From: Desulfoscipio geothermicus DSM 3669
GTDB taxonomy: Bacteria; Bacillota; Desulfotomaculia; Desulfotomaculales; Desulfallaceae
NCBI RefSeq assembly: GCF_900115975.1
Contig: NZ_FOYM01000034.1
Location: 1 to 35,731, forward strand
DNA: 35,731 nt
Direction: 5' to 3'
The stretch's first letter is position 1, and each line of letters opens with the position of its first letter. Both the position numbers and the translations under genes were made by a program. This document shows positions 212 through 35,731 of the stretch, one piece after another. The notes beneath the pieces were generated by a model that was given only the letters and a program-made list of their open reading frames with translations, searched no databases and was not told the DNA's origin.

Positions 212-230
212 GTTAGCCTTGCAATTAACC

Positions 231-366
231 GACGGCAGCCCTTGACATGGAGCCTCTAGGCCTGTGTTTCCGGGAGGCCGCGGGGAGTCCACGCTGTGCG
301 TTGGCCTCCCGCCCAAATAGGCTAACACAGGCCTTCCTCCATGTAAAGGGCTGCCTGGTTGTTTCT
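231..366. repeat. Long imperfect palindrome downstream of the IS256 transposase
   Basis: The arm around 234-251 (GCAGCCCTTGACATGGAG) pairs with the complement of 336-353 with one mismatch. Further in, GGCCTGTGTT pairs with AACACAGGCC, and CGGGAGGCC with GGCCTCCCG. Together they form an imperfect hairpin of about 115 bp. The direct repeat AATTAACC occurs at 223-230 and 367-374 on either side. An 8-bp duplication is the size IS256-type elements make, so this could be a small non-autonomous element, the IS end, or a hairpin terminator for the transposase. The arms are not symmetric to the flanking repeat, which weakens the transposon reading. Confidence 0.55.
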
Positions 367-380
367 AATTAACCCCGGTC

Positions 381-1127
381 TTATCTAAAACTAAAAGGTT
401 CAAAACCATTTACACGAAAATATTCACACTCCCTCATAAGACGCTTGTAGTTTACTCCCTTTTTAGCGTTTTCTTCCCGCTTTTTCCGGAATTCGATTGG
501 CTTTACAGGGTATTCGGGATCGGCGTATCCCATAGCCGTCACACTCTGTGCGAGATAATGCCGACCCGGACAAGAGTCCCAACCAATAAGTTGTAGAGGG
601 CGGTTATTTCCGTCCCGTGGCCAACGGGGGTCATCCGGCCATATTCCTTGAAGAGACGCAGGACATGGATCACCGTTTTTGAGTCCTTTTGTTTTTTTCC
701 GGATTTCGGCTTGTTTTCGTTTTTCTTCCCGCTGCCGCCGCCGGCTTTCTTCCGCCGCTTTTCGATGCGCGAACGCTTCGCGAACCTGGCTTTCCAGTTC
801 TCCGACCAACTCGGGTTTGTTACGCAGGCTTTTTATAGCCTGCCGGGCGCGCTCATATCCGGCTCTTTGTTTCTTCTCATCGCTATATAATGGGATGAGG
901 CCGCAAGTGCAAGCTATCTTTTTTACTGACGCTTCCGGTTCGCCGATTAGGGCCATTGCTACTGCCCGGACTGCCTCAAGCCGGTCAGCTCGTGTATCTT
1001 GTCCCGGCCCACGCTGTCCCTGGCCGCGAAGGGGCGGCAGACCCATACGATTCCGGCGCATCCTTTCTGCATCTGCTGAGCATGTTCGGTTTTTTTTCTG
1101 TATATTGTTGTTTTTTGAAATGGGCAT
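381..1127 (-). CDS. Hypothetical basic, coiled-coil-containing protein
   Basis: This 248-residue protein is not recognised. Its middle part, from about residue 115 to 150, is a run of Arg, Lys and Glu (EESRRRQREEKRKQAE) likely to form a charged coiled coil. The C-terminal half has two Cys (GDPCPAS and WDSCPGRH) and many aromatics. The frame can be extended to a TTG at 1169, but the ATG at 1127 is preceded by AAAGGGGA about 10 bases upstream and is the better start. It is transcribed divergently from an XRE repressor, from a strong promoter at 1219-1247 that overlaps an inverted repeat. That places it under phage-like repressor control. A role in element maintenance is possible but unproven. 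Confidence 0.6.
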   Translation of the reverse strand: MPISKNNNIQKKNRTCSADAERMRRNRMGLPPLRGQGQRGPGQDTRADRLEAVRAVAMALIGEPEASVKKIACTCGLIPLYSDEKKQRAGYERARQAIKSLRNKPELVGELESQVREAFAHRKAAEESRRRQREEKRKQAEIRKKTKGLKNGDPCPASLQGIWPDDPRWPRDGNNRPLQLIGWDSCPGRHYLAQSVTAMGYADPEYPVKPIEFRKKREENAKKGVNYKRLMRECEYFRVNGFEPFSFR

Positions 1128-1218
1128 ACTGATCCTATCCCCTTTCAAACACACCGAATACTTTGACAAGCAAGCACATTTCAGTATAATTGTCCATAAA
1201 AGGTATCGTTTTAAGTTG

Positions 1219-1247
1219 ATTGTAAACAGTTATGGTTTACATGTCAA
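1219..1247 (-). promoter_or_regulatory. Sigma-A type promoter with overlapping operator, driving the gene at 381-1127
   Basis: On the minus strand there is a -35 TTGACA (1242-1247), a 17-base spacer and a -10 TACAAT (1219-1224). The inverted repeat TGTAAAC-N7-GTTTACA occupies 1221-1241, exactly covering the spacer and part of the -10. A repressor bound there would block RNA polymerase. The XRE gene starting at 1281 in the opposite direction is the obvious candidate. Confidence 0.7.
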
Positions 1248-1280
1248 TAATCTAGTTGCAGATGAAATGAGTGACCATAA

Positions 1281-1940
1281 ATGAAAATGAGGCGTTTTGG
1301 CGAAATATTAAAAAAAACCAGAGAATTACGCGGTTTTTCGATAAGAGATCTGGCAAAAATATTAAAAGTTTCGGCCACCTTAGTCTCAAAATGGGAAATA
1401 GGCAAATATCCTCCCCCACAAAAAATTGAAACTATAAAAAAAATTAGCCAAGTATTGGCTATAGATGAAAATGAATTACTAGAACTTTGCAATATTGAAA
1501 ATATGCTTAATGGTTTACCTAATAATCTTAGAGTAGCACTTAAAAAATCATTATATATACATTTAAAAACAAATTATAGAGATGAAAATGGTCGTTTTAA
1601 AGGTCCAGAAAATATATATGATTCTTTGCTTCCTTTAGCTTCAAATGGAAAAAATTTGCTTGTTGTGAAGCAATTTGGATTTCAATGGGATGAAATAAAT
1701 TATCCTAAATTTAAAACACTTGCAGAATGGATAATTAATGATTTTCTAATGCAATTACTCTGCAAAATTTCTATAGATTTTGTAAATATTCAAAATGGCT
1801 ATGCAGACATAGGAACATTTTTAAGAAATGAAAATAGAAAATTTATTATACAAGTATACTTCCTTAAACCAGATGGCACTGAGGAACTTTATGAGCTAGA
1901 CTCGGATGGTATTAGTTTTTCTGACTTTTTGCTGGTATAA
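1281..1940 (+). CDS. XRE-family helix-turn-helix transcriptional regulator
   Basis: The protein has 219 residues. Residues about 5-65 form a classical XRE (Cro/CI-type) helix-turn-helix: FGEILKKTRELRGFSIRDLAKILKVS, then a recognition helix around SATLVSKWEIGKYPPP. The remaining 150 residues match no family I can name and may form a dimerisation or sensing domain. The coding sequence is much more AT-rich than its neighbours, a sign of recent transfer. The start has only a weak ribosome binding site (GAGTGACC). It overlaps the convergent excisionase-like gene by 29 bases at its 3' end. It most likely represses the divergent promoter at 1219-1247, and possibly itself. Confidence 0.85.
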   Translation: MKMRRFGEILKKTRELRGFSIRDLAKILKVSATLVSKWEIGKYPPPQKIETIKKISQVLAIDENELLELCNIENMLNGLPNNLRVALKKSLYIHLKTNYRDENGRFKGPENIYDSLLPLASNGKNLLVVKQFGFQWDEINYPKFKTLAEWIINDFLMQLLCKISIDFVNIQNGYADIGTFLRNENRKFIIQVYFLKPDGTEELYELDSDGISFSDFLLV

Positions 1941-2109
1941 ATAGGCTATTGTTGATAAAATTTTTAATTTCAGATTGTTTAAATCGAAGTGTCTTTTGGC
2001 TATTGATTTTGTATCCCTTTAAAACCCCTTTTCTAACCATTCTATATATAGTTTGTTTCGATACACCAAGTATTTGAGCGACTTCACTTGTGCTTAGCAT
2101 TTTTTCCAT
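1912..2109 (-). CDS. Small helix-turn-helix protein, MerR/excisionase type
   Basis: This 65-residue protein has the pattern MLSTSEVAQILGVSKQTIYRMVRKGVLKGYKI followed by RFKQSEIKNFI. That is the winged helix-turn-helix of the 'DNA-binding, excisionase family' (MerR-like HTH_17). The frame opens further upstream, but the ATG at 2109 has GGAGG nine bases ahead and starts just before the domain. Proteins of this size act as Xis/recombination directionality factors or as small regulators in integrated elements. No integrase is visible in the window, so an excision role is inference. Its 3' end overlaps the XRE gene, so the two transcripts are convergent. Confidence 0.8.
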   Translation of the reverse strand: MEKMLSTSEVAQILGVSKQTIYRMVRKGVLKGYKINSQKTLRFKQSEIKNFINNSLFIPAKSQKN

Positions 2110-2140
2110 TTCATAACACCTCCAATTTTTTATTTTAAAA

Positions 2141-2169
2141 ATTAAGATTAGGCCCGGCATAGCCGGGCC
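2141..2169 (-). terminator. Rho-independent terminator after the secreted-protein operon
   Basis: GGCCCGGC (2151-2158) and GCCGGGCC (2162-2169) form a perfect 8-bp GC stem with a 3-base loop. On the minus strand it is followed by TAATCTTAATTTTT. It sits 57 bases beyond the stop codon of the gene at 2226-3344. Confidence 0.65.
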
Positions 2170-2225
2170 ATTGTCAACACTCTTGCTCACTCAATTTAGT
2201 GTCCAAATATCAATTGCAAATTAAA

Positions 2226-3344
2226 CTATTTTTGATACACAGGCGACAACCCGTACTTATCCTTGATAAAATCCCACGGAAGCATGTATGACATTCTTTC
2301 AACATCTGAAGTGGTATGCGTGAACCAGGTAATTATACCATTAACATTACGAACAGAACAGGATACACCTGTATTGTTACTTATATCTGCTTGTAACCCG
2401 CCTTCATCCTGAACAAAGATAGTATACGCAAAACCGTCTTCAGGGGTAGGCATGACAAACTTTTTTACCCATGCCTGGTTTTGTTTTGTAAACGACACTT
2501 CACTATCGAAGAGGACTTTTTTAGGAAATTCGCCACTAGACGGCAAATCTACTCCAGAAATTTCCACACCCATCATTTTTTCAGCCGGATACGGCCCAAT
2601 TAGATATACTCTGAGTCTTGCTTTATATACATAAGGCCATTCATCTGCAACCGGGATAGGTCCTATCATGGGTGCTCTTATGACATATGTGGTGTACTTA
2701 TTTCCTTCTTCCTTCGGAATATCATGAAAACACCCGTCAAAAAGATAGCGTCCGCTTGCCACTGAAGGTTCCGGTTCCACCGGCACCCCGTACCAAGTAA
2801 TAAGGACCGGCAGATACCACCGCCAGCCCTGGGCCATGTTGGAGAAGTCTTTTTCGTCCATACCAAGCGATTCACGCACGGTCGGGTCCTTGAGATCAAG
2901 CAATTCCGGTTCCAAGTCAAACGTCCACTGTGTCGTTACCTTGCCTTCGGCCAGGTTTTCACCGGTTTTGGTAACTGAATAGTTGGCGGGTATATATCTG
3001 AGGAAATCTTTATAGAAAATTTCCCAATTCTCCTGCCGCCCGGAAGCATTAAACTGTTCCTCGATGAACGGGTAAGCCACTTCCACTCTGGTTAGTTCGT
3101 ATTTGCCCTTCCACACCGCTTCCGGCAGTGTAAAAGTTTTGGAGTATGTTTTGTCTTTCCATCCGTAATAATCCGGCTGGCCGCAATTGTCGGTGTCCTG
3201 CCAGGTGCCGTTGGTGTGCTGCCATATATCGAAAGACGGTACGATCACCTGCTGTTTTACCACTTGTTCTCCGGAAGCGGCCATGGCCATGCCTGGCAAG
3301 AGTAATAAGGCCACCAATAGGGCTAATAGTTTAATCAATCGCAT
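2226..3344 (-). CDS. Secreted protein of unknown function
   Basis: The 372-residue protein starts with a clear Sec signal peptide, MRLIKLLALLVALLLLPGMAMA, with an AMA|A-type signal peptidase I site around residue 22. The mature part is rich in Trp, Tyr and Pro (IWQHTNGTWQDTDNCGQPDYYGWKDK near its start), suggesting an extracellular beta-rich fold. I do not recognise a family. Its ATG overlaps the stop of the upstream gene (TAATG), so translation is coupled, and an AAGGGGG ribosome binding site lies inside that gene. It is probably co-transcribed with, and works alongside, the copper-amine-oxidase-domain protein. It appears to be cargo of the integrated element. Confidence 0.75.
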   Translation of the reverse strand: MRLIKLLALLVALLLLPGMAMAASGEQVVKQQVIVPSFDIWQHTNGTWQDTDNCGQPDYYGWKDKTYSKTFTLPEAVWKGKYELTRVEVAYPFIEEQFNASGRQENWEIFYKDFLRYIPANYSVTKTGENLAEGKVTTQWTFDLEPELLDLKDPTVRESLGMDEKDFSNMAQGWRWYLPVLITWYGVPVEPEPSVASGRYLFDGCFHDIPKEEGNKYTTYVIRAPMIGPIPVADEWPYVYKARLRVYLIGPYPAEKMMGVEISGVDLPSSGEFPKKVLFDSEVSFTKQNQAWVKKFVMPTPEDGFAYTIFVQDEGGLQADISNNTGVSCSVRNVNGIITWFTHTTSDVERMSYMLPWDFIKDKYGLSPVYQK

Positions 3345-4408
3345 TATTTACCAACCCCCTTGTACAGTGGATTTTCCACGGCCAGAACCTGGTCATAAAA
3401 TAAAATCATGATGTGGGTCACGTCCTCAATCCTGGTCGGAGACGGATCGGCTTCCAGGCTGACATAGTAACTTTGAGTGAAAGGGTTACTCTGATATTTA
3501 ATTAGCGGACCATATGCTCTTTGCACGGAAACATCATTACCTTTGGCTAATACAATAGGTGCCGGTGTAAGTCCACTTCCAGCCTGGGTAACATAAACCT
3601 TATCATTAGCAACCTTTACATCGTAAATTATCTGGTAACCGCCATCGCCCAGCTTAACCGGCTGCTGCCGCAACTCATCTACCGTCATATACATGATGCT
3701 CGCCCCGGGCAGCTTAAACTCGTAGGGGATTGCTTTTCTGTCGGAAATCACCTTGTAATCATCCGGATCAAGCGGCACGCCGCTAAACGGCCTTACGTCC
3801 GCTTTTGGCTGCTCCGGTGTCACCGGCGGGTTAACCGGATCAGTGGCCACCGGCGGTTGCCCTTTAACGTACCTTACCACGTTGCTCACGTCCGGCCTTT
3901 CCATTCCCCGCGGCCAGCACAGCACGATATTGTTTTCCGCATCCCAGGCCACCTGGTAACCCAGCGCCTCCGCCACGAACCGGGCCGGCAGATACGTCCG
4001 GCCTGTTTTCAAAAGCGGAGAAACGTCCATAATTTTCGCCTGGCCATCACTCTTGATTTGCTTATTGCCCACAGTCAGTTCCACTACCGGGAACCCGGGC
4101 TGGCTCAAAGTAACCCTGGGACTTTCCCAGCCGATATATTTATCGCCCACGCCCAGGGCGTTGCTCAAGTACCGCACCGGCACAAAGGTGCGGCCCGTCT
4201 CGATGAACGGTTTGGCATCCATCTTCACGCCGGGAGTTTGGTTATTTACGAAGTATTCATCCTGGCCAATCACGAATACAACGCTTTTAACCAGGTTCTT
4301 TTGCTGGTCGTATACATCCACCTGGGTCTTATCTGCCGCCAAGGCCACCGTCACCGCCATTGTAAGCACGGTAATAAAAATCAGGGGAATAAGCAAAGAT
4401 TTTCGCAC
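3344..4408 (-). CDS. Secreted protein with two copper amine oxidase N-terminal-like domains
   Basis: The product has about 354 residues. The N-terminus is a signal peptide (MRKSLLIPLIFITVLTMAVTVALAA). Two repeats follow, with the pattern GRTFVPVRYLSNALG and GRTYLPARFVAEALGYQVAWD...NNIVL. These are characteristic of the copper amine oxidase N-terminal-like (stalk) domain common in surface proteins of Peptococcaceae. A Pro-rich linker and an unrecognised C-terminal domain follow. These domains are not oxidases by themselves; they act as surface or wall-associated modules. I chose the GTG at 4408 because GGAGG lies eight bases upstream; the ATG at 4426 would include that ribosome binding site. 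It is the first gene of a two-gene operon behind an extended -10 promoter. Confidence 0.85.
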   Translation of the reverse strand: MRKSLLIPLIFITVLTMAVTVALAADKTQVDVYDQQKNLVKSVVFVIGQDEYFVNNQTPGVKMDAKPFIETGRTFVPVRYLSNALGVGDKYIGWESPRVTLSQPGFPVVELTVGNKQIKSDGQAKIMDVSPLLKTGRTYLPARFVAEALGYQVAWDAENNIVLCWPRGMERPDVSNVVRYVKGQPPVATDPVNPPVTPEQPKADVRPFSGVPLDPDDYKVISDRKAIPYEFKLPGASIMYMTVDELRQQPVKLGDGGYQIIYDVKVANDKVYVTQAGSGLTPAPIVLAKGNDVSVQRAYGPLIKYQSNPFTQSYYVSLEADPSPTRIEDVTHIMILFYDQVLAVENPLYKGVGK

Positions 4409-4434
4409 ATCACATGCCTCCTTCATTTTGGTAT

Positions 4435-4443
4435 ATTATACCA
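4435..4443 (-). promoter_or_regulatory. Extended -10 promoter for the secreted-protein operon
   Basis: The minus strand reads TGGTATAAT, a perfect -10 hexamer with the TGN extension, about 27 bases upstream of the GTG start at 4408. No convincing -35 is visible at the right distance (CAGGTT at 18 bases is weak), which fits an extended -10 promoter. Confidence 0.5.
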
Positions 4444-4490
4444 CAGGATACAACCATAAACCTGCCCGGCACCACCACCTTTCAGCCGGC

Positions 4491-4522
4491 AATGTAGTGA
4501 CCACTAAGGTAGCCACTACATT
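4491..4522. repeat. Inverted repeat between operons
   Basis: AATGTAGTG (4491-4499) and CACTACATT (4514-4522) form a perfect 9-bp stem with a 14-base loop. It lies downstream of the gene ending at 4586 and upstream of the promoter at 4435-4443. There is no clear T-tract on the minus strand, so it could be a weak terminator or a regulator binding site. Confidence 0.5.
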
Positions 4523-4585
4523 GCTTTCTCACATTTACCCATTAACCAATCAGCAAACCCCCTCTCAGACGCGCGTAAAAGGCTT

Positions 4586-5044
4586 TTAAAGAGCTTCTAA
4601 CCAACGTGGTAATGGGGTAATGCCTGCATTAAAATCATCAGGCTTTTTCATCGAATTTGCCGTTTCCCTTAACGACTTTGCCAAAACCTCAAGCTCTGAC
4701 AAAGGCAACTCACCAAACTCTTTATGAATTAACTTCAGGTACAATTCCGGGTAAACCGGCAGTGATTTTAAAAGCCCCCATACGATCTTGTAATCTTCAT
4801 TATCGGTCGGTAACGGCTTAATCTCCAAAACCTTCGCCCTTAGTTCTTGTCGCTTCAACTCACCATAACTCGAAACTACTATAGCCAAAACCGCCATAAT
4901 ATCCACAAAACATAGCTCAGACAACAGCGGCCACCATTCATCCGTCGTTTTTTCAAGTAATATATCTACTACTTCTGTAAGCTTACGTCTATCAATCAAT
5001 TCCGCATAAATTTTTTGCCCTTCAACGCAACCAACATATACCAC
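4586..5044 (-). CDS. Hypothetical protein
   Basis: The product has 152 residues and no recognised domain. It is mostly alpha-helical and hydrophobic in the middle (WWPLLSELCFVDIMAVLAIVVSS), then charged and Leu-rich. A longer frame reaches 5167, but that stretch runs through two hairpins. The GTG at 5044 has GGAGG seven bases upstream and is preferred. The gene follows the unknown gene at 5168-5653 and probably shares its transcript. The roughly 120-base leader between them carries a strong inverted repeat (5095-5145). Function unknown; part of the accessory element. Confidence 0.6.
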   Translation of the reverse strand: MVYVGCVEGQKIYAELIDRRKLTEVVDILLEKTTDEWWPLLSELCFVDIMAVLAIVVSSYGELKRQELRAKVLEIKPLPTDNEDYKIVWGLLKSLPVYPELYLKLIHKEFGELPLSELEVLAKSLRETANSMKKPDDFNAGITPLPRWLEAL

Positions 5045-5094
5045 AATAACCCCTCCTTTGATAAAATAAGGGGCACCAGGGGTTACCCCTTGAG

Positions 5095-5145
5095 GGAGAG
5101 CATTACACCCTCCAGCCGTCAAGCATAGCGGGTGTAATGCCTCCC
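5095..5145 (-). repeat. Strong hairpin in the leader of the gene at 4586-5044
   Basis: GCATTACACCC (5100-5110) pairs perfectly with GGGTGTAATGC (5130-5140). The stem extends outward as GGGAG/CTCCC with one bulged base, giving about 16 base pairs and a 19-base loop. A second short palindrome (AGGGGTTACCCCT, about 5078-5090) lies between it and the ribosome binding site. It may be a transcript-stabilising or regulatory element. Confidence 0.6.
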
Positions 5146-5167
5146 AACTCCAACAAACCGACCGCAT

Positions 5168-5653
5168 TCACACCTCATGACATCCCTGCTTTGCATCACC
5201 CCCCTGGATAACCTCACCGTTATAAATAACCGTCAGCCTTTGTGGCCCATTAAAAAAAGTGTGATAAACGCCCCTTAGTTTTTGCCTTACATGCTCCAGC
5301 AGGTATTCCCTCTTGTCATCTATTTGCTCCCATACACGCTCGTAATCCTCACGAAACTCCTGTTCCAACTCCTGCCTTGCCTTATCAGTCAGTTCGTCAA
5401 GGGCATATCCTTTTAGCTCCGATTTCACGTATTCATCCTTACTTACAAAAAACTCCTCACCAAACTCATCTCGCAATCGACGTTCAACTTCAGCTTTTAT
5501 GATATTGTCCGTTTCTTCTTTGTAAAGTTCCTCAAAATACCAATCCAACTGATCACACAGTACACCGCCATGGTTCCTCTTCCACTTGTGTTGAGCCGCC
5601 ATCATCACTTCCCAGGCATACTTCTCCAGTTCATTTTCCAGGATAACCTTCAT
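5168..5653 (-). CDS. Hypothetical charged, helical protein
   Basis: The 161-residue product is highly charged and helical (DNIIKAEVERRLRDEFGEEF, KARQELEQEFREDYERVWEQ), consistent with a long coiled coil. The C-terminus (RLTVIYNGEVIQGGDAKQGC) looks like a short beta segment. No family is recognised. The ATG at 5653 is chosen because GGAGG lies nine bases upstream; a GTG three codons earlier overlaps this site. It is the first gene of a two-gene unit with the ORF at 4586-5044. A perfect 22-bp palindrome lies 63 bases upstream. Confidence 0.65.
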   Translation of the reverse strand: MKVILENELEKYAWEVMMAAQHKWKRNHGGVLCDQLDWYFEELYKEETDNIIKAEVERRLRDEFGEEFFVSKDEYVKSELKGYALDELTDKARQELEQEFREDYERVWEQIDDKREYLLEHVRQKLRGVYHTFFNGPQRLTVIYNGEVIQGGDAKQGCHEV

Positions 5654-5715
5654 ACGAAACACCCTCCATCACAAAGATTAGCCGTATTTATAAGCGGCGA
5701 AGCCCATATAGGGGT

Positions 5716-5737
5716 TTGGGGATCAATTGATCCCCAA
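5716..5737. repeat. Perfect 22-bp palindrome
   Basis: TTGGGGATCAA is followed immediately by its exact reverse complement with no loop. A loopless palindrome of this type is more typical of a dimeric regulator's binding site than of a terminator, and it lies upstream of the gene at 5168-5653. On the plus strand it is followed by a T-rich stretch (TGTTTATTCTTTT), but no plus-strand gene precedes it. Confidence 0.6.
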
Positions 5738-5765
5738 TGTTTATTCTTTTAATCCCCCCCGCGTT

Positions 5766-5974
5766 TTTTCGCCTTTCGGCTTAAGGCCGAACCAGCGGCG
5801 TCGTGCCCGCAGGTAAAGGGTCGCGCGCAAGCGCGAGGCCGAGGAATACCGGACCGGCCGCAGACCCCAAATCATAACCCCAAAGCCAGGCCGGGAGGAT
5901 ATGCCGCAGGCCCTTGCCCTTTACCGAAGGGCCGTAAGAGACGCCGCTATAATGAGGCCGCCGAAAGGCGAAAA
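5766..5974. repeat. Large nested inverted repeat (about 209 bp)
   Basis: Three pairs of arms are nested in register. TTTTCGCCTTTCGGC (5766-5780) pairs with its exact complement at 5960-5974, AGCGGCGTC (5794-5802) with 5940-5948, and GGTAAAGGG (5812-5820) with 5917-5925. Inside lie a GCGCGC-AA-GCGCG hairpin and a copy of CCCCAAAGCC. The order and spacing of the arms suggest one folded unit. Confidence 0.65.
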
Positions 5975-6014
5975 TCAAAGCGCCGCGCTAGCGGCGCATC
6001 CACTGTTCAGACCA

Positions 6015-6040
6015 AAAAATATTCCAAGTGGAATATTTTT
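6015..6040. terminator. AT hairpin, possible bidirectional terminator
   Basis: AAAAATATTCC (6015-6025) and GGAATATTTTT (6030-6040) form a perfect 11-bp stem with the loop AAGT. The A-tract on one side and T-tract on the other give terminator geometry in both directions, but the stem has only two GC pairs and no gene ends nearby. Confidence 0.35.
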
Positions 6041-6054
6041 ACCTTATCCCCAAA

Positions 6055-6107
6055 GGCATTTTCCAGCCGACCCCAAAGCCCGGCCCCAAAGCCGGCTGGA
6101 ATATGCC
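6055..6107. repeat. 15-bp stem enclosing two direct repeats
   Basis: GGCATTTTCCAGCCG (6055-6069) pairs with CGGCTGGAATATGCC (6093-6107) with one mismatch. The 23-base loop contains the two CCCCAAAGCC copies at 6071 and 6084. Confidence 0.6.
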
Positions 6108-6359
6108 GCCTATCCCGGCACAGCCGGACGGTCGCGTATTACCCCAAAGGCATGACCCTAAAAGCGACGGTCCGGCGGTTTTTCTGCCCAAGACAAAGAC
6201 CCTAAAACAAGACTATCAGGCTGCTTTTAAAGACCCCAAAGCCACACTCCGCCAGGTAATACCCACAATGGCCAACTTCGCTAGCCATGAGCGATCGGTA
6301 GTGAAAGTCGATAGCGGAAATTAGCACCCTAGAAACCAGCAACAAAGTAACAGGTATTC

Positions 6360-6413
6360 TCTTCCCCGGCAGCGAAAATGAAAAAATGTCAAAACTATAA
6401 CTGCCGGGGAGGA
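6360..6413 (+). promoter_or_regulatory. Hairpin that can hide the ribosome binding site of the small membrane gene
   Basis: Bases 6360-6372 can pair with 6401-6413 in a 13-bp stem with one G-U pair. The second arm contains the whole GGGGAGG Shine-Dalgarno sequence of the gene starting at 6420. The loop is 28 bases. Translation would be low unless the hairpin is opened. Confidence 0.5.
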
Positions 6414-6419
6414 AAAATA

Positions 6420-6563
6420 ATGTTAGTTGACAAAAACGAAATGTTAATTAGCATATTAAAAGCATTTTGGTTTTTCACTAAACAAATGTGGTTTATTTGG
6501 GTAATTATAATCCTAATGTTCATTATCGGGATCTTTATAAAAAAGTGGTCAAAACCAAAGTAA
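6420..6563 (+). CDS. Small membrane protein
   Basis: The product is 47 residues with one strongly hydrophobic segment (FIWVIIILMFIIGIFI, about residues 25-40) and a basic C-terminus (KKWSKPK), consistent with a single-span N-out or tail-anchored peptide. The frame opens at 6378, but the ATG at 6420 has GGGGAGG eight bases upstream and is the likely start. Its size, the masked ribosome binding site and its plus-strand position among minus-strand genes recall type I toxins or small conjugation proteins. There is no direct evidence for either. No antisense RNA promoter was identified. Confidence 0.55.
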   Translation: MLVDKNEMLISILKAFWFFTKQMWFIWVIIILMFIIGIFIKKWSKPK

Positions 6564-6591
6564 CAGACATAAGCAAAATGGAATCTGTCCT

Positions 6592-7239
6592 TCAATACTT
6601 CCAATTTGCCTTTATCACCTTAACCTTAACTCCCGAATCCGCAGCCGCTTTCATCACCTGCTTTTGCCTGCTTTCCGAGAACACCAAAAAATTAATCATC
6701 AGCTGTTGTCGTATTCCCGACGGCAGGCGAGAATACAGTTTAATTCTCTCTGCCAGGTACTTAAGCGAATACTGGTAATCAATAGCCAGCACATGCAACC
6801 AACCGTCTTTCTCAAAAAACAAATCCGAACTACGCAAACACCTTTTTAGCACATCGTAATCAGCATCCATCCACCGGCTTAGCACCTCCCGGCGCGGTAA
6901 ATACTCAATCCCCATAGCCAAAGCAAAATCGCAGGCCACCAAGCACTTAAGCACCGTATCCACACCGGCGTTACGAAAAATCCTCGCGTACCACGGCACG
7001 GCAAGACCGATTTCTTCACCGCCCAGGGGCGTGAGATAATAATACAACCGCCCGCAGCTTAACCGGCCCGACTTAATCAAACTCGCCCGGCGCAAAGCCA
7101 ACAGCCGCTTATAGCAGGTGTTATAAGCGCTGCTAAAAAGACCCGCCTTAAACAGCTGTTCCAGCGTAACAAACCGCCACCGGGCGATAAAAGCTAAAAC
7201 ATTTCTATCGCGTTCTGTAACAACAACCAGTCCCACCAC
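6592..7239 (-). CDS. Replication-relaxation-like winged-helix protein (second copy)
   Basis: The 215-residue protein opens with TERDRNVLAFIARWRFVTLEQLFKAGLFSSAYNTCYKRLLALRRASLI. This is the winged-helix pattern of the replication-relaxation family found on Gram-positive plasmids and conjugative elements. The C-terminal part may be nuclease-like, but I cannot identify catalytic residues. It begins with GTG two bases after the TGA of the gene at 7241, so translation is probably coupled. The two genes share N-terminal architecture (T-x-RD-x-x-x-L---AR-R) and may be diverged paralogues acting together at the element's origin. Confidence 0.6.
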   Translation of the reverse strand: MVGLVVVTERDRNVLAFIARWRFVTLEQLFKAGLFSSAYNTCYKRLLALRRASLIKSGRLSCGRLYYYLTPLGGEEIGLAVPWYARIFRNAGVDTVLKCLVACDFALAMGIEYLPRREVLSRWMDADYDVLKRCLRSSDLFFEKDGWLHVLAIDYQYSLKYLAERIKLYSRLPSGIRQQLMINFLVFSESRQKQVMKAAADSGVKVKVIKANWKY

Positions 7240-7240
7240 C

Positions 7241-7903
7241 TCAATTCATGCCGGACGCAATCCGGTAAGTCACAAACTCCCCCGCGGCCCCATATTTGGC
7301 CAGCGTCTGCTCCCGCCCGGCAGGACACACCCAAACCACATTTTTGCCGGCAAACCCGTCCACCTTCTCCCGGATCTGCGCGGGCGTATACTTGCCGCAA
7401 TCAGTCTCCACGAAAATTTCCTCGCCTTCTTCACTAACGTAAGAAGCATCGGGAACCACCAAGCCGGTATTACCGGAGAAAACGTCGTGCTCAATCTCCA
7501 GCGCGTCACCGATACGCCAAGTCTCTTTTTCGTCATCGGAAAGGCCAAAGTAAACCTCGTTAGTCCGCACCTGGTGCACTATCTCGTCAGCCTTACCCGG
7601 ATGGGTAAACACAATACTTCTATCCAAGCCAGGCCCTTGTGGGCCGGTAACCCAACGCTTGCCCTTTGTGTCCAGGCTGTAAACCTTCATGAAAGTGCCC
7701 GGCTTTTCCGCATTGGCCATATGCTCCGCAATATACCCGGCCTTTTGCAGCTGTTTCAGCCGGTCATCACAAGTGCGCTCCTTGGCCGCGGGCCAGTAAG
7801 CGTTCTTGACTTGCCCGAATGAAAGAACCCGGCAGCGTGCCAGGTCGGTAAGAATAGCTTTATCCCGATCCGTTAGCTGTTTGGCTTTGGTAATGCGTGC
7901 GAT
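7241..7903 (-). CDS. Replication-relaxation-like winged-helix protein (first copy)
   Basis: The N-terminal part, KQLTDRDKAILTDLARCRVLSFGQVKNAYWP...RTCDDRLKQLQKAGYI, is a winged-helix of the replication-relaxation type. The C-terminal part (VPDASYVSEEGEEIFVETDCGKYTPAQIREKVDGF...VVWVCP) looks like a restriction-endonuclease-like fold with a D-x(n)-E-x-D pattern, as in other members of this family. The start is odd. GGAGG at 7912-7916 is eight bases ahead of an ATC codon at 7903, and no ATG lies near. GTG at 7912 overlaps the ribosome binding site, and the TTG at 7951 has none. It lies upstream of and is coupled to the second copy. Confidence 0.6.
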   Translation of the reverse strand: MARITKAKQLTDRDKAILTDLARCRVLSFGQVKNAYWPAAKERTCDDRLKQLQKAGYIAEHMANAEKPGTFMKVYSLDTKGKRWVTGPQGPGLDRSIVFTHPGKADEIVHQVRTNEVYFGLSDDEKETWRIGDALEIEHDVFSGNTGLVVPDASYVSEEGEEIFVETDCGKYTPAQIREKVDGFAGKNVVWVCPAGREQTLAKYGAAGEFVTYRIASGMN

Positions 7904-8473
7904 TAAAACCACCTCCTGTAAATACCCCGGCGTAAAAGGGCGCAGCCCCAAAGGGGGTCCGGGGGTTAATAACCCCCGGCGGGGGTATGGGGATTATAAG
8001 GGGAAAGGGGGCAGCGCCCCATTTCCCCTTATGCGGCCCGGAGCGCAGCCGGCAGGCAATGAGGGCACAAAGCCGAATTGCCAGCACAAGCGTTGCCGGC
8101 GGAGCGTAGGGCCGCTGAGCAGTCCGGGTGAACGCGAAGCGTGAACCCCGGAGGCCGAAGGCGGCAGGGGCGAAGCCCCCTGGCCCGAGCAAAGCGAGGG
8201 TGCCGCCGAAGGCCGGAGCGCCGCTTATGGTCCGTGCGAACGAAGTGAGCTACGGACCGTTGGCGGCGGGACTGCTCCTACTCCGCCGTTGTTTGCCGCC
8301 AAACGGCAAACAACAGGCGGAGGAACGCTGCAACGACGCGGACTGGAAGCAACCCGCGCCCCGCAGAAAAGCGACGCAGGCAGCGCCCGCCGCGAAGCGG
8401 GGGGATGCTCTGCGGGGTGGTACTGCGGGGCGCTGCCATGCAGCAACTGCCATTAATGGCGGTTACTGTATGA
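7904..8473. other. Gene-free, hairpin-rich GC stretch
   Basis: No credible gene is seen between the TraG-like gene and the winged-helix pair. The stretch contains a series of stable hairpins. CCGGGGGTTA/TAACCCCCGG is at 7959-7979. ATAAGGGGAAA/TTTCCCCTTAT is at 7996-8032 with an inner GGGG/CCCC. GGGGCGAAGCCCC lies near 8170, and GTCCGT/ACGGAC with a GAACGAAGTGAG loop lies near 8230-8256. A very strong stem lies at 8281-8322. GAGCAGTCC (8117-8125) also pairs with GGACTGCTC (8269-8277). It could be a transfer origin or structured RNA. Confidence 0.55.
8281..8322. repeat. Very stable hairpin, 18 bp
   Basis: CTCCGCCGTTGTTTGCCG (8281-8298) pairs with 8304-8322 with a single bulged base and a 5-base loop (CCAAA). 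It is not followed by a T-tract on either strand, so it is not a typical terminator. Confidence 0.7.
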
Positions 8474-10354
8474 CTACAGGGCAATTTCCTCAGCCTCGGC
8501 GTTGCTGTTTTTGCTGCCAGCTTTTTGCATTACACCCTGATTTTGTTCGGGTGCCAACATGGTTTCCTCCGCTGTTTTTTCTGCTTGGACCAGCTTTCTT
8601 TTGGCTTTTTCTAACATTTCTCTCACCGTGACCGGTTCCGGACCCAGCACTGGCAACTCGGGTTCCGGCAGCGGCAGCTGCTCCAGACGGTCTTTTTCGG
8701 TCTTGGAAATCAGGTAGGCATGGTTGGCCAGCGTGGCCAACCGCCCGCGCCTGATGATGATTGACTTGCCTGGAGGCATTTTTTTGAACGTGTTTGGATG
8801 CATAAGCGGTACTTCTATTTCCGCGCTGCTTTTGCCCACGGTATGCCGTTGGTTGTCGCTGCCCAGGCCGGGCATCCATTCTTGCGTTTGGGTTTTGTTT
8901 TCGCTATAGCTGGCGACCGTTTTTAGAACGGTGCCGCAGTACTGCGAGAAAAGTTCGGCATCAGTGGGAGTGTCCGCATTGAAAATGATTTTAGTTCTTG
9001 TGTTCACCTGAACGGTGTTGACGAAATCATCACCCACTGCTTGCAAGTCTCCCATGGCCTGGTTGGCCAGCACCAGGCCGTAATTAGCGGAACGCACCTT
9101 GGAGATAATATTACGGAACGCCTGGCAGGCCATGTTTTGAAATTCATCTATGGCTATTATCGTTGGCCGGGACTGTGGTGTCCGAAAAGCCGCTTGGTAC
9201 TGGAGGTCCTGGGCGATCATTTTGCCGATGGCCGAGCTGGCCTCCGGGGCCAGAGCGGATTTCAGATCGAAATACACTACGTCCCCGTTTTGCATTATTT
9301 CGGCCAGGTCGATGTCCGGTCGGGGAGAGTTGATTTGTTCCAGGTCCGCAAACGGGGTCAAGGCGGCGGTTAGGCCCTTTATCTGGCTCTCGTCTACTTT
9401 CTGGCCGGTTAGCTGTAGCACCAAACCGGGATTTTGCAAGATACTCTGTATGTCAGCCAGGGTGTATTTTATTCCCTGGCTGTCCAACTCTTTCAAAAGC
9501 GGAATGAATGTGGCCTGCTGCACATAAGAGTAAAACTTCGCTTCTCCCTGGAACACCAACTCTAACGCCGTCATGATCCGCTCTACTTTGTTTAGCGCGG
9601 CGCCGGTGGCCAACGGGTTATACGTGTTGCTTTTCGCGCTAGGGTCAAGGGTGAAGAAGTAAAATCTTTTGCCGTTTTCCTCTGCTGCCTTGGCCAAAAG
9701 CTGGATAGCCTGCTTGTCCTCTTTGAAGTCGATTACAACCAGGGACGCGCTTTTGCGTATGGCTTGCATGCAAATGGGCGTTACGCCGAAGGCGGTTTTG
9801 CCGGTGCCGCTGCCGCCCATGATGTGTATGTGTTCAGCCATGTCGGATACTGACACGGTTATGGGCCGCCGCCGGTCGTCCAGGCCGAGAAAGTATTGGT
9901 TTTCCGGAGTTTTGGCCAGATACCGGCTGGCGTTATATCTCACCTGTTTGAAGCATATTTTCCGAATATCGCGATAGTCGCTGTCTTCGCCTTTTTTCAA
10001 GGCCCTTATCTTGCCCGCAACAACTCCGATCAAAGCCAGGATCGCCAAACCGCCATTCAGGTACAGCCAGCAAGTACGCACTTCCGGACTAGATAGCTTG
10101 TCCGTTGCGAACAGCCAGGCCCGAGCGACAAACATCGGGTGGTGCCAGTACCAGCCGGCCAGGCTGAAATCAGGCGGACTGGGGAAGTGTTCCAGACCGT
10201 CCACCAACGCCATGATATATGCCGCGGCAGTGCCCAAAAGCCAGACGTCGAGAATATATGCAACGGCCAGGCCCAGGCAGCCCAGGCCGGCCAAAGCCAG
10301 CCATTTACATTTTGCCGGCATTTCAGTTAGCCGGTCACGAAGAATGTGTATCAT
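8474..10354 (-). CDS. TraG/VirD4-like type IV coupling ATPase
   Basis: The 626-residue protein has two N-terminal membrane segments (about residues 16-40 and 98-115), a Walker A motif GGSGTGKT (180-187), SLVVIDFKEDK (about 204-214) and a Walker B IIAIDEFQN (399-407). A TraM-recognition-type region follows (NIISKVRSANYGLVLANQAMGDL). This is the layout of type IV coupling proteins, hexameric membrane ATPases that pass DNA to the conjugation channel. The ATG has GGAGG eight bases upstream. It lies 38 bases after the replication initiator and probably in the same operon. No relaxase or mating-pore gene is in the window, so the element may be mobilizable or the rest may lie to the left. Confidence 0.88.
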   Translation of the reverse strand: MIHILRDRLTEMPAKCKWLALAGLGCLGLAVAYILDVWLLGTAAAYIMALVDGLEHFPSPPDFSLAGWYWHHPMFVARAWLFATDKLSSPEVRTCWLYLNGGLAILALIGVVAGKIRALKKGEDSDYRDIRKICFKQVRYNASRYLAKTPENQYFLGLDDRRRPITVSVSDMAEHIHIMGGSGTGKTAFGVTPICMQAIRKSASLVVIDFKEDKQAIQLLAKAAEENGKRFYFFTLDPSAKSNTYNPLATGAALNKVERIMTALELVFQGEAKFYSYVQQATFIPLLKELDSQGIKYTLADIQSILQNPGLVLQLTGQKVDESQIKGLTAALTPFADLEQINSPRPDIDLAEIMQNGDVVYFDLKSALAPEASSAIGKMIAQDLQYQAAFRTPQSRPTIIAIDEFQNMACQAFRNIISKVRSANYGLVLANQAMGDLQAVGDDFVNTVQVNTRTKIIFNADTPTDAELFSQYCGTVLKTVASYSENKTQTQEWMPGLGSDNQRHTVGKSSAEIEVPLMHPNTFKKMPPGKSIIIRRGRLATLANHAYLISKTEKDRLEQLPLPEPELPVLGPEPVTVREMLEKAKRKLVQAEKTAEETMLAPEQNQGVMQKAGSKNSNAEAEEIAL

Positions 10355-10392
10355 CAGGTTTTCCTCCTTTTGGTTGTGGCCACCGGTGGCCT

Positions 10393-11580
10393 TTAGCTCA
10401 GATACAGCGATCTAACCAATTCTTTTTTCCGCCGGGCTTCGTCATCGGGTCCCCTGGCTTTGGATCTTTTCTGCCCTGACTGTTGTTTAGGCATGGTCCT
10501 GATTTGTTGTTGCCGGGGCTGCCCAACTGTATCAGGTATTGGTTTTATATCATTTTGAAGTGCCCAGTTTAACCAGTGACCAATTCCTTTTTTTAGCACG
10601 AGTCCTCCTCTAAGCTGGTTTTCTAATTCTTTAAGCGTATCTGAAAGCTGTTCAGGGGTGTATTTTTTTGCGATATGTTTTGCGAATTGTACCGTAATGT
10701 CTTGACCGGCCACCGCCCGGACATCTTTCCGAATTTTTTCCCACAGTTTTTCTTTGTTCTCTTCTCCACTGACCACCCTTTCACTAAAATTAAAAACAGC
10801 TCTGCTATTTGTAACAGAACTGCCCGTTGTTTCTTCTGTTTTTCTTTCTACGAGGCAATCAAGCAGCTTAGGTGGTAGCTGTACCCCGCATACTTTTTCT
10901 GCTTGCTGCCAAAGTTCGTTGTTGTTGTTTTGTTCATCACTGGAAAAGTTTTTAGGCACATTTTCTTTTCGACTTTTTTCGACAGACGGCTTATCAACAA
11001 CAACAACATTACAACAACATATATTGTTAGTGTCGTCTTTTCCTGTGTCAGGATAAGGCGACATAGGTTTTTTTTCAGTAAAATCAAGGCTTTTTCCTAT
11101 GTCGTGATCTGACGACATAGGTTTCTCGTTACCTTTTCCTATGTCGTCTGTTGCTGACACAGGTTTTTCGTGTTCTTGTCCCAAAACCAAGTTACTCAGG
11201 GGAAGAATCGTATACCTGTTGTTGTCCCATCGGTCACCTTTCTTACCGGTGTTTACATTTTTTTTTCTAACCTTTGTAACTAATACTACGGGTTTACCTT
11301 GCCATCGGTATCGAAGTAAACTGTTAATACGCTCATTAGCCGCTTGGCGGCTCACGCCTAGCGCTTTAGCGATCTGTACTTGAGATGGATAACAGTTCCC
11401 CTGGGTATCCATAAACGTCGCCAATACACAAAGCGTTTTCCAATCGCGGTCAGAAATGTCCGCCAAAAACCCGGAAGTCCTAGCGGCCACGTAAAGCTTC
11501 ACAAAAACCTGTTCCTGCCAACCCTTATTTAAAACATCAAACTCCTTTTGTATTTCAACGGAAATTAGTTTTTGATTCAT
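10393..11580 (-). CDS. Helix-turn-helix replication initiator with iterons inside the gene
   Basis: The product has 395 residues. The N-terminal domain (about residues 15-130) ends in a winged helix: DRDWKTLCVLATFMDTQGNCYPSQVQIAKALGVSRQAANERINSLL. This is the pattern of phage and plasmid replication initiators of the HTH_36/replisome-organizer type. A disordered linker follows with three repeats of KPxSxxxDxGK (about 147-190) and an Asn-rich run. The C-terminal domain (LWEKIRKDVRAVAG...GIGHWLNWALQND) and basic tail are unassigned. The repeats are encoded by three 26-bp palindromes at DNA level, so the origin may lie in the gene as in lambda O. The ATG at 11580 is preceded by GGGTGGAG; a GTG three codons earlier is possible. 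Confidence 0.75.
   Translation of the reverse strand: MNQKLISVEIQKEFDVLNKGWQEQVFVKLYVAARTSGFLADISDRDWKTLCVLATFMDTQGNCYPSQVQIAKALGVSRQAANERINSLLRYRWQGKPVVLVTKVRKKNVNTGKKGDRWDNNRYTILPLSNLVLGQEHEKPVSATDDIGKGNEKPMSSDHDIGKSLDFTEKKPMSPYPDTGKDDTNNICCCNVVVVDKPSVEKSRKENVPKNFSSDEQNNNNELWQQAEKVCGVQLPPKLLDCLVERKTEETTGSSVTNSRAVFNFSERVVSGEENKEKLWEKIRKDVRAVAGQDITVQFAKHIAKKYTPEQLSDTLKELENQLRGGLVLKKGIGHWLNWALQNDIKPIPDTVGQPRQQQIRTMPKQQSGQKRSKARGPDDEARRKKELVRSLYLS
10984..11163. other. Candidate replication origin: three palindromic iterons plus AT-rich stretch
   Basis: Three 26-bp palindromes of the form CCTATGTCG-N8-CGACATAGG lie at 11042-11067, 11096-11121 and 11138-11163. The middle one has perfect 10-bp arms; the outer two have a CCTGTGTCA half-site. 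Start-to-start spacings are 54 and 42 bases, close to whole helical turns. Next to them, 10984-11035 is AT-rich (CAACAACAACAAC, ACATATATTGTT) and holds TTATCAACA at 10991-10999, one base off the DnaA box TTATCCACA. Iterons plus an unwinding region inside the initiator gene match the lambda O arrangement. Confidence 0.6.
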
Positions 11581-11645
11581 GATCTCCACCCTTTTTAACC
11601 GCCAGCAACCTTTCCGGAAAAATTAAATGCCGGGCATAATAAGTC

Positions 11646-11667
11646 AAAACCCTATCTTTCGATAGGG
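11646..11667 (-). terminator. Hairpin with GAAA loop, possible terminator
   Basis: On the minus strand CCCTATC-GAAA-GATAGGG forms a 7-bp stem with a stable GAAA tetraloop, followed by TTTTGACTTATT. It lies just inside the element border, downstream of the broken yhbH, and could end the prkA transcript. The following TTGACT might alternatively be the -35 of a promoter for the replication initiator. Confidence 0.45.
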
Positions 11668-11720
11668 TATAATTTATTTATAAAAGTTTCAAATGCCCGT
11701 CATTCGTGCTTTCCAATTAG

Positions 11721-11873
11721 TCAGATAATTGACATTAGTCTTTCTTCGCTTACCACATCGGCCAGATTTTTTTTGATGGCTTCCCTGACCTTCTCACGGT
11801 GGCGTTCCCGGTCGATCTCACCCTTGCGGTGCAGCGACCAGTCGTCCCGGGAAACTATATACTCACCTGACAT
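11721..11873 (-). pseudogene. yhbH: yhbH (DUF444 sporulation protein), 5' fragment interrupted by the element
   Basis: A 50-codon frame starts with ATG at 11873, 13 bases after the prkA stop, with GGTGGTGAGG ahead of it. It reads SGEYIVSRDDWSLHRKG and continues ERHREKVREAIKKNLADVVSEERL, the conserved N-terminus of YhbH, which is normally about 380 residues. After SEERL the similarity ends and the frame stops within a few codons (MSII, stop). The gene lies where yhbH is expected in the prkA-yhbH-spoVR cluster. The rest of yhbH, and spoVR, are absent here because the accessory element follows. The 3' part may lie on the far side of the element. Without excision the protein cannot be functional. 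Confidence 0.85.
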
Positions 11874-11886
11874 TTTGCCTCACCAC

Positions 11887-13785
11887 CTACCTGTTTAACA
11901 AACTGCCCACATACTTAAGCAATTCATTGGCGCAAATGCTGCAGTAGCCGTACTCATCAATGAGTTTGGCGCTGACTTCGTTAATCCGTTTAAGCTGCTC
12001 CGCGTCGGGAGTCTTCGTGGAAGTGGTAATCTTGACTACGTCTTTCAAATCGGCAAACAGTTTCTTTTCCACTGCTTCGCGCAGCCTTTCGTGCGATTTG
12101 TAATCAAAACGTTTGCCTTTGCGGGCGTAACTGGAGAGCCTGATCAAAATTTCCTCCCGGAAACTCTTTTTGGCGCTTTCGGATACACCGATTTGTTCCT
12201 CTATGGACCGCATCAGCTTTTCATCGGGATCTAATTCCTCGTCGGTAATGGGATCTTTTAATTTTACCCCGTTACAATACGCCTCCACGTTATCCAGGTA
12301 ATTGTCGAACAGCACCCTGGCCGAATCTTCAAAGGAATATACAAAGGCCTTTTGCACTTCTTTTTTCGCCAGTTCATCGTATTCTTTGCGGGCAATGGAG
12401 ATAAAGTTTAACAAACGGTCCCGCTCCTCCTTGGTAATGGAAGGATGCTGGTCCAGTCCGTCCTTTAATGTCCGCAGCACATCCAGGGGATTAATGCATT
12501 TGGTGGTGGTACGAATCAAGGCCGAGCTCAACCGGTTAATGACATAACGCGGGTCCACGCCGCTCATCCCTTCATCGGTATGTTCGGCCTGCAATTCCGA
12601 TACATCCTTTTGCTTGAATCCCTCCACATCTTCACCGTCATAGAGCTTCATTTTTTTAACCAAATCCATGCCCTGTTTCTTGCTTTCCTTCAATCGAGTC
12701 AGAACGGAGAAAATACTGGCCACCCGCAAAGCATGGGGGGCTATATGAATATCTTTTAAATCACTTTGTTTGATTAACTTGTCATAAATTTTGACTTCCT
12801 CTCTGACTTTCAAATTGTAGGGAATTTTCATTACAATGATTCGGGACTGCAGCGCCTCGTTTTTCTTGTTACTGATGAACGACTTATATTCATTTTCATT
12901 TGTATGCGCCACGATCATTTCATCAGCGTAAATTAAGGCAAAGCGCCCGGCCTTGAAATTACCCTCCTGGGACAGGCTGAGCAGATTCCATAAGAATTTT
13001 TCGTCACATTTAAGCATTTCCTGGAATTCCATAATTCCCCTGTTAGCAATATTTAGTTCCCCGTCAAAACGGTATGCTCGCGGGTCCGATTCAGACCCGT
13101 ATTCGGCTATGGTACTGAAGTCGATACTGCCCGTAAGATCAGCAATATCCTGGGATTTGGGGTCGGAGGGGGTAAACGTGCCTATGCCCACCCGGTTGTC
13201 TTCGGACAGGATAATTCGTTCCACCAGGACATTTTCAATATTGCCCCCGTACTCTGTTTCCAGCATCATCCTGCAAGAAGGACATAGTTCGCCTTCAATA
13301 TACACTCCGTACTCCTTTTCAAAATCTTCCCGCAGGTCTTTGGGAATCAAGTGCAGGGGTTCTTCGTGCATGGGGCAGTTTTTTATGGCGTACAGGGCGC
13401 CCCGTTCCGTTCTGCTATATCTTTCCAGACCCTTCTTCAACATGGCCACCAGCGTAGACTTACCGCCACTCACCGGGCCCATTAAAAGCAAAATGCGCTT
13501 ACGCACATCCAATCGCCGGGCCGCCGGGTGAAAATATTCTTCTACCAATTTTTCCAGCGTTTTATCCAGTCCAAAAATTTCCTTGTTGAAAAACTTATAA
13601 CGTTTACCTCCATGTTCCGGTTCTTCCACTCCCGCGTCATAAATCATGTTGTAGATCCTGGAATGGGCCAGTTGCGTCACCCAGGGTTTTTCTTTGACTA
13701 CCTGCAAATAATCGTAAAATGTACCTTCCCATGTATTTTGTTTTTCCAGAGAGCGGAATTCTTCCAAACGTTTAATAAAATTCAC
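11887..13785 (-). CDS. prkA: PrkA serine protein kinase / AAA+ protein
   Basis: The product has 632 residues, almost the same as Bacillus PrkA (631). PrkA is a sporulation-associated AAA+ protein with a kinase-like C-terminal domain. The N-terminus (NFIKRLEEFRSLEKQNTWEGTFYDYLQVV) is typical. The P-loop GPVSGGKST is at about residues 103-111. The AAA region continues with GELCPSC, IADLTGSIDF and NRGIMEFQEMLKC. The frame extends 46 codons further upstream, but this part is unlike the family. The GTG at 13785 has AAGGGAG nine bases ahead and gives the expected N-terminus. It is followed by the interrupted yhbH. It belongs to the mother-cell sporulation programme in Bacillus; I could not identify a clear sigma-E promoter. 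Confidence 0.97.
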   Translation of the reverse strand: MNFIKRLEEFRSLEKQNTWEGTFYDYLQVVKEKPWVTQLAHSRIYNMIYDAGVEEPEHGGKRYKFFNKEIFGLDKTLEKLVEEYFHPAARRLDVRKRILLLMGPVSGGKSTLVAMLKKGLERYSRTERGALYAIKNCPMHEEPLHLIPKDLREDFEKEYGVYIEGELCPSCRMMLETEYGGNIENVLVERIILSEDNRVGIGTFTPSDPKSQDIADLTGSIDFSTIAEYGSESDPRAYRFDGELNIANRGIMEFQEMLKCDEKFLWNLLSLSQEGNFKAGRFALIYADEMIVAHTNENEYKSFISNKKNEALQSRIIVMKIPYNLKVREEVKIYDKLIKQSDLKDIHIAPHALRVASIFSVLTRLKESKKQGMDLVKKMKLYDGEDVEGFKQKDVSELQAEHTDEGMSGVDPRYVINRLSSALIRTTTKCINPLDVLRTLKDGLDQHPSITKEERDRLLNFISIARKEYDELAKKEVQKAFVYSFEDSARVLFDNYLDNVEAYCNGVKLKDPITDEELDPDEKLMRSIEEQIGVSESAKKSFREEILIRLSSYARKGKRFDYKSHERLREAVEKKLFADLKDVVKITTSTKTPDAEQLKRINEVSAKLIDEYGYCSICANELLKYVGSLLNR

Positions 13786-35624: not shown

Positions 35625-35731
35625 TTCCGGCAACGACCTACTCTCCCGGGGACGAACCCCAGTACCATCGGCGCTGGAGAGCTTAACTGCCGTGTTCGGG
35701 ATGGGAACGGGTGTATCCTCTCCGCTATGGT
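35625..35731 (-). rRNA. rrf: 5S ribosomal RNA (5' end cut by window edge)
   Basis: The minus strand reads ACACCCGTTCCCATCCCGAA, then CACGGCAGTTAAGCTCTCC and AGCGCCGATGGTACTGGGG, ending GGGAGAGTAGGTCGTTGCCGG. This is the conserved 5S rRNA sequence (loops A-E). The last 107 bases are present; the first few bases, which pair with the 3' end, lie beyond the window. The terminator follows directly. The 16S and 23S genes should lie to the right of the window. Confidence 0.96.

Follow-up and report, generated by a model that had tools for sequence, protein, structure and literature searches.

The question raised by the sporulation locus of Desulfoscipio geothermicus DSM 3669 is whether its yhbH gene, of which only the beginning follows prkA, has been lost or is interrupted by a mobile element whose departure would rebuild it. 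The DNA analysed (the window) is 35,731 nucleotides long and represents a whole contig (C72) of a 3.65-Mb genome in 83 contigs. The yhbH gene is split by a site-specific integrated element and was not lost. The sequence itself establishes that integration took place site-specifically at codon 44, that the recombinase gene is intact, and that yhbH can be restored exactly. The main reading is that an integrative element entered yhbH by means of a serine recombinase and is excised in the mother cell during sporulation. This reading is likely (probability of about 0.72), the excision being inferred, without read or PCR evidence.

Organization of the split yhbH gene

In the integrated state, the yhbH open reading frame (ORF; window 11721-11873, minus strand) encodes 50 amino acids, starting with MSGEYIVSRDDWSLHRKGEIDRERHREKVREAIKKNLADVVSEE and then departing from YhbH. 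Over codons 1-47, its identity to an intact YhbH amounts to 89% (E 5e-21), and its match to Pfam DUF444 is weak (E 9.4e-4, below the cut-off). The yhbH share of this side consists of codons 1-43 and two bases of codon 44, beyond which the frame enters foreign DNA and stops after 50 codons. The 3' part, in frame and open, is located on another contig (C50), where spoVR starts directly after it (C50:3976). The gene order on C50 is the N-terminal part of the gene for a mutator-type transposase (289-2, minus), genes for a nucleotidyltransferase (MNT) and a HEPN protein (minus), a 59-aa ORF, a gene for a 524-aa recombinase, the yhbH 3' part, and spoVR. In intact relatives, such as genome G012, prkA, yhbH, and spoVR are contiguous, and therefore C72 and C50 flank one insertion (Table 1). 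A whole-genome search with Pfam DUF444 returned three matches, namely the 5' piece in the window and two parts of a single 3' piece on C50, and no second yhbH copy was found by it. A SpoVR search of the genome gave one match, directly after the yhbH 3' piece.

The former adjacency of C72:1 and C50:1 is inferred. Both contigs probably end in the same kind of repeated mutator-type insertion sequence, in compatible orientation; the transposase start on C50 matches PF00872, whereas the window end was named by reading, without a Pfam match. Another start of the same transposase type opens contig C43. The right end of the window (35625-35731, minus) falls within a 5S rRNA gene, a likely cause of that assembly break.

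In codon register, the left junction reads AGC GAA GAA AGA CTA and the right junction AGT CAT GAG AGC ATT, both having GA in codon 44 in common, inside a looser GARAG match. Joining the ends at this GA gives an uninterrupted YhbH of 383 codons that is 89% identical to the G012 protein; the joint reads AIKKNLADVVSEESIILSDGRKVVKV and is identical there to intact YhbH. Hence, the sequence establishes that excision at the shared GA would restore the YhbH frame exactly and reunite yhbH and spoVR with prkA, although the excision itself remains an inference. The attP of a serine integrase is an inverted repeat with a core of two bases at its centre. In the attP reconstructed here, 16 of the 22 arm positions pair around GA. 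None of 18709 random joins of interior element DNA, with a similar choice of centres, reached 16 (mean 7.1, maximum 15), nor did any other centre within the 800 reconstructed bases. The scores were 8 for attL and 5 for attR, both unrejoined, and 9 for attB.

A preliminary description, made from the letters of the window only, had suggested a mobile element inside yhbH, which held, given the split gene, the recombinase, and the exact joint. Its count of about 46 canonical codons and a stop at codon 51 held as well, with the refinement given above. The remaining yhbH codons, spoVR, and the recombinase gene that it predicted all exist, but on C50 and not in the contig of the window. The short shared core that it expected is the GA at both junctions. 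It had further held that the absence of a 3' part nearby, or a second intact yhbH, would point to gene loss; neither applies, as the 3' part lies in frame before spoVR and no other copy was found.

Table 1. Features of the split yhbH locus (window positions, unless contig C50 is given) and codon positions of breaks with a recombinase gene in the genomes surveyed
Feature	Position	Strand	Basis or remark
Left part of integrated element	1-11744	none	Right part is C50:1-2956; piece between unassembled
Probable C-terminal end of mutator/IS256-type transposase	2-211	plus	Contig breaks here; no Pfam match; authors' reading
Cro/C1-type repressor-like protein	1281-1940	plus	Pfam HTH_19/HTH_3
Excisionase-like HTH_17 protein	1912-2190	minus	Pfam HTH_17, E 1.3e-14; candidate directionality factor or regulator only
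372-aa protein	2226-3344	minus	No family match; common to G061 spoVR element
Copper-amine-oxidase N-domain protein	3344-4426	minus	Pfam; relative in G061 spoVR element
215-aa protein	6592-7239	minus	Weak PHROG match to replication initiation; relative in G061 spoVR element
Replication-relaxation protein	7241-7951	minus	Pfam Replic_Relax
TraG/TraD/VirD4-type coupling protein	8474-10354	minus	Pfam TraG-D_C, T4SS-DNA_transf
Replication-type DNA-binding protein (HTH_36)	10393-11589	minus	Pfam; PHROG 12720
attL, left junction	11713-11774	minus	Crossover core GA at 11743-11744; partner attR around C50:2957-2958
yhbH codons 1-43 (5' part of split gene)	11745-11873	minus	ORF, homology, and rebuilt joint
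prkA, first gene of operon	11890-13785	minus	Uninterrupted here; split in relatives
59-aa ORF	C50:1251-1430		Just before recombinase gene; mere candidate directionality factor
Large serine recombinase, 524 aa	C50:1378-2952		Resolvase, Recombinase, and zinc-ribbon domains; ends four bases before yhbH 3' part
yhbH 3' part, from codon 44	C50:2957-3979		In frame, open
Break in prkA	near codon 143		Recombinase at break in G009, G035
Break in prkA	near codon 257		Recombinase at break in G005, G009, G019, G026, G029, G032
Break in prkA	near codon 285		Recombinase at break in G005, G065
Break in prkA	near codon 467		Recombinase at break in G025, G027, G028
Break in yhbH	codon 44		Recombinase at break in G000 (genome of the window)
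Break in spoVR	codon 66		Recombinase at break in G009, G010, G031, G061

Content of the element and its recombinase

The two assembled pieces (window 1-11744 and C50:1-2956) put the size of the element at 14.7 kb or more. The GC content of its two pieces is 0.48 and 0.42, and that of both flanks 0.51. Besides the proteins listed in Table 1, it encodes several unknown proteins. Relatives of the coupling protein at E <= 1e-30 were present in 16 of 113 genomes. Comparison of ten proteins with the PHROGs revealed no phage structural genes (capsid, terminase, portal, or tail), the middle of the element being unassembled and the smallest ORFs falling outside the scan; the matches obtained concerned regulators, replication proteins, and an integrase, and the sole terminase match was weak (1e-5) and belonged to the coupling protein. 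No relaxase or mating-pore genes were found among the proteins scanned from the assembled part, again with the middle missing. The element is probably best called mobilisable or conjugative-type, the assembled part not looking like a prophage.

The recombinase gene is intact, without an internal stop, and in the integrated state points directly at the yhbH 3' part and spoVR. A single-protein scan retrieved no relatives of the recombinase in named genomes or viral contigs. No directionality factor was identified; the only candidates are the 59-aa ORF and the HTH_17 protein. The latter had been called excisionase-like in the preliminary description, which held as a family match, its role being unknown. 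Large serine recombinases usually work with a directionality factor of a kind other than HTH_17 excisionase-like proteins. A scan for sigma-E and sigma-K promoters by consensus sequence found no site above chance upstream of any recombinase gene; it failed at prkA too and is hence uninformative.

The nearest recombinase, 37% identical, occurs in G008 (locus C60:29367-29639 and C135:98098-98952), where it adjoins the 3' part of a PRK06851-family gene, the 5' part being on another contig; a link of this gene with sporulation is unknown. The genome of the window itself contains two further serine recombinases. One of these, a large one (C51, around 31891), precedes what reads as the 3' part of a trypsin-like protease gene, with another HEPN/MNT pair on its far side by the same reading. 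The other one (C63) adjoins an smpB-like gene, read as a possible element at the tmRNA locus. The short flanks of both showed no sign of a sporulation gene, indicating that such insertion is not confined to sporulation genes.

Recurrence of recombinase genes in prkA, yhbH, and spoVR

A published table for Bacillus subtilis assigns prkA, yhbH, and spoVR to sigma-E (PMC3416734), and their expression in the present organism is assumed by analogy only. The 113 genomes of the order were searched with YhbH, SpoVR, and PrkA, which gave matches in 101, 98, and 106 genomes, respectively. Apparently split gene pieces were fetched non-exhaustively, so that the counts of recombinases at breaks represent a lower bound. 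At least 18 serine recombinase genes were located at breaks in one of the three genes, in 15 of the 113 genomes and at six fixed codon positions (Table 1). The distance to the break was within about 150 bases in 17 of the 18 cases and about 2 kb in G026. Comparable splits were found on single contigs in G061, G010, G031, G025, G028, and G032, among which G061 is a one-contig genome with its spoVR halves 15.8 kb apart and G025 contains prkA in three pieces. All 14 rebuilt end pairs were in frame and restored the canonical protein across the junction; prkA of G032 has a further frame break downstream of the restored joint. In addition, 13 of the 14 attP dyads scored 14-19 out of 22 on the shared core, with identical centres within each site, the failing one being that of G031 (9/22). 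Recurrence at prkA, yhbH, and spoVR is claimed, but not enrichment over other genes.

In a tree of 23 recombinase sequences, four sites were represented more than once, and at all four the sequences of a site formed one group (100/100 support); those of yhbH and prkA-285 stood alone on long branches. This tree left out eight of the 16 background recombinases, including that of G008, as well as those of G005 and G027. Partial matches in G034, G055, G051, G073, G086, and G097 resemble contig ends or frame breaks and were excluded from the insertion count. In G055, spoVR is spread in four pieces over as many contigs, all of them at or near a contig end, which may reflect insertion or assembly breaks. 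A phylum-wide yhbH search (398 genomes drawn, 114 matched) showed the codon-44 split only in the genome of the window; this draw omitted G005, and other partial matches in it were left unresolved.

Genome G005, of another genus of the family, departs from YhbH at the same codon as the host. Beyond the first two core bases, the left end of its element matches that of the host at 16 of 23 positions (shuffle p 2e-5). Neither the yhbH 3' half nor a related recombinase was found in its assembly, and upstream of the yhbH piece there is no prkA, insertion-sequence remnants being read there instead. G005 supports the codon-44 site, in a copy that looks decayed or rearranged. On contig C146 of this genome, two recombinases face each other across some 35 to 47 codons of prkA; one is of the 257-type and truncated at the contig end, the other of the 285-type.

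The spoVR element of G061 shares much of its content with the yhbH element, the identities being 70% for MNT, 66% for HEPN, 57% for the replication-relaxation protein, 55% for the coupling protein, 53% for the 215-aa protein, and 46% for the copper-amine-oxidase protein; parts of the 372-aa (40%) and 164-aa (38%) proteins matched too. The G061 recombinase, in contrast, is 25% identical to that of the host over the matched part and falls in the spoVR group. A single mobile backbone is thus found in two neighbouring sporulation genes, with a different integrase in each.

As to selection, a 5' prkA piece ending near codon 257 was present in all seven genomes of family f4 with a PrkA match, and a piece starting there in five. 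Between species, the f4 prkA halves gave Ka/Ks values of 0.03-0.09 in the nine of 21 comparisons with unsaturated synonymous sites. If the split is as old as the family, as is inferred, prkA has been kept under purifying selection throughout its split state, which would be expected of a gene that is rebuilt. For the yhbH halves of the host, compared with 12 of 14 relatives (G002 and G004 left out), synonymous sites were saturated against 11 of the 12 intact relatives, and the selection signal is not diagnostic. Both halves are open and about 88-89% identical to an intact relative, and their non-synonymous change resembles that seen among intact copies.

A profile of the prkA-257 recombinases yielded 17 loci in named genomes, in 11 of which a prkA piece starting at codon 253-256 comes after the recombinase; five of these 11 were taken as genomes already counted (G032, G026, G029, G009, and G019). 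The cultured strains Moorella mulderi DSM 14980 and Desulfocucumis palustris NAW-5 each have two prkA insertions (257 and 285), with a prkA piece of some 32 to 35 codons between the 257-type and 285-type recombinases. Cultured strains with a split prkA are thereby named, in which the matter is open to decision by PCR. The same profile found nine viral contigs, one of which (L118) has prkA codons 255-632; a viral scan with the spoVR-site recombinases gave three loci, without spoVR in any flank.

Proposed mechanism, alternatives, and relation to known elements

A first alternative, considered unlikely, is that an ordinary serine-recombinase element happened on yhbH and leaves only on transfer, the strain living without YhbH and without any link with sporulation. 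In its favour are the serine recombinases elsewhere (two more in this genome and the one in G008 splitting the PRK06851 gene), the transfer-type genes on board, the lack of a visible sporulation promoter in a scan that cannot tell, and the decayed look of G005. Against it are the repeated insertions at six exact codon positions of three sigma-E genes, seen in 15 of the 113 genomes, the strong purifying selection on both split prkA halves in family f4, and the exact attP/attB geometry with undamaged gene halves. A second alternative, insertional inactivation followed by decay of a dead yhbH under loss, might find support in the G005 assembly without a 3' half, but is very improbable in view of the open and conserved host halves. 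Thirdly, an assembly artefact, with contigs wrongly ended and yhbH truly continuous, could be suspected from the halves being on separate contigs that both end in a repeated insertion sequence, but can practically be ruled out, since the breaks are situated well within the contigs, 2.9 and 11.7 kb in, the recombinase adjoining one of them and an attP half-site the other, and since comparable splits occur within single contigs, as listed above.

According to the preferred reading of mother-cell excision, crossover by the serine recombinase between the attP of the element and an attB at yhbH codon 44 would have caused integration. By analogy with skin in sigK and gin in gerE, the recombinase and a directionality factor of the element itself would excise it in the mother cell during sporulation, so that the element would be costless in growth and the spore would retain the integrated copy. 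As the recombinase gene reads towards the yhbH 3' part and spoVR, both would be separated from the prkA promoter for as long as the element is in place. Since integration puts spoVR behind the recombinase gene instead of behind prkA, a single excision would switch two sporulation genes, yhbH and spoVR. The sporulation-linked excision proposed in the preliminary description thus held in part: the architecture fits, and excision during sporulation is inferred.

Several known elements resemble that in yhbH. Firstly, skin splits sigK in B. subtilis and C. difficile, encodes a serine recombinase, and restores the frame upon excision (PMC517825, PMC5595907). The yhbH element likewise has a serine recombinase, splits a mother-cell gene, and would restore the frame; the features of a skin-type system, namely a split gene, a sole copy, a restorable frame, an own recombinase, and a short shared core, are all present. 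Skin, however, is prophage-like, targets a sigma factor gene, and has experimentally proven excision, whereas here the target is yhbH, no phage structural genes were seen, and excision is inferred. Secondly, vrin is an intervening element in spoVR of Geobacillus thermoglucosidasius (PMC4191935). The spoVR codon 66 elements of four genomes are comparable to it, spoVR adjoining yhbH in the genomes studied, but the element of the window resides in yhbH and its recombinase looks unrelated, a comparison made without the codon position or recombinase of vrin. Thirdly, gin in gerE of B. cereus ATCC10987 has no phage genes, three serine recombinases, and a known directionality factor, GirX (PMC5595907). 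The yhbH element is likewise an intervening element with a serine recombinase and no phage genes seen, but has another target and no identified directionality factor. Fourthly, yin in yabG of C. botulinum is excisable, prophage-like, and reported from one strain (PMC10747680); it shares with the yhbH element a location in a sporulation gene of a clostridium, although the gene differs and the assembled part of the yhbH element does not look like a prophage. Lastly, the yhbH element has a coupling protein, replication-type proteins, and an integrase in common with integrative mobilisable or conjugative elements, but no relaxase or mating-pore gene was seen in its assembled part, and its target is a sporulation gene.

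The kind of system is thus known, and spoVR is a known target; what is probably new is the targeting of yhbH and prkA, the stacking of insertions in neighbouring genes, and the exchange of integrases between these genes. Stacking concerns G009, with three recombinases at breaks, and M. mulderi, D. palustris, and G005, with prkA split at both 257 and 285. The preliminary description had supposed a yhbH excision element to be new, and no published element in yhbH or prkA was found in the literature searched, most subscription journals being beyond its reach. The split genes named in the literature examined are sigK, spsM, spoVFB, spoVR, gerE, and yabG, a short list of genes split by sporulation elements that yhbH, plus prkA, extends. 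A further yield is a set of serine recombinases for which attB, attP, and core have been predicted. Furthermore, with one neighbouring gene set repeatedly struck by unlike recombinases, the choice of mother-cell genes by mobile elements becomes countable. A bolder reading, which may prove right as readily as wrong, is that prkA, yhbH, and spoVR in Desulfotomaculum-type clostridia and Moorella form a multi-piece set that would be rebuilt by several independent mother-cell excisions. Unrelated elements with their own recombinases would occupy the six fixed codon sites, alone or stacked, and mobilisable elements would swap integrases and so move between genes, sporulation genes then being a protected landing zone for mobile DNA.
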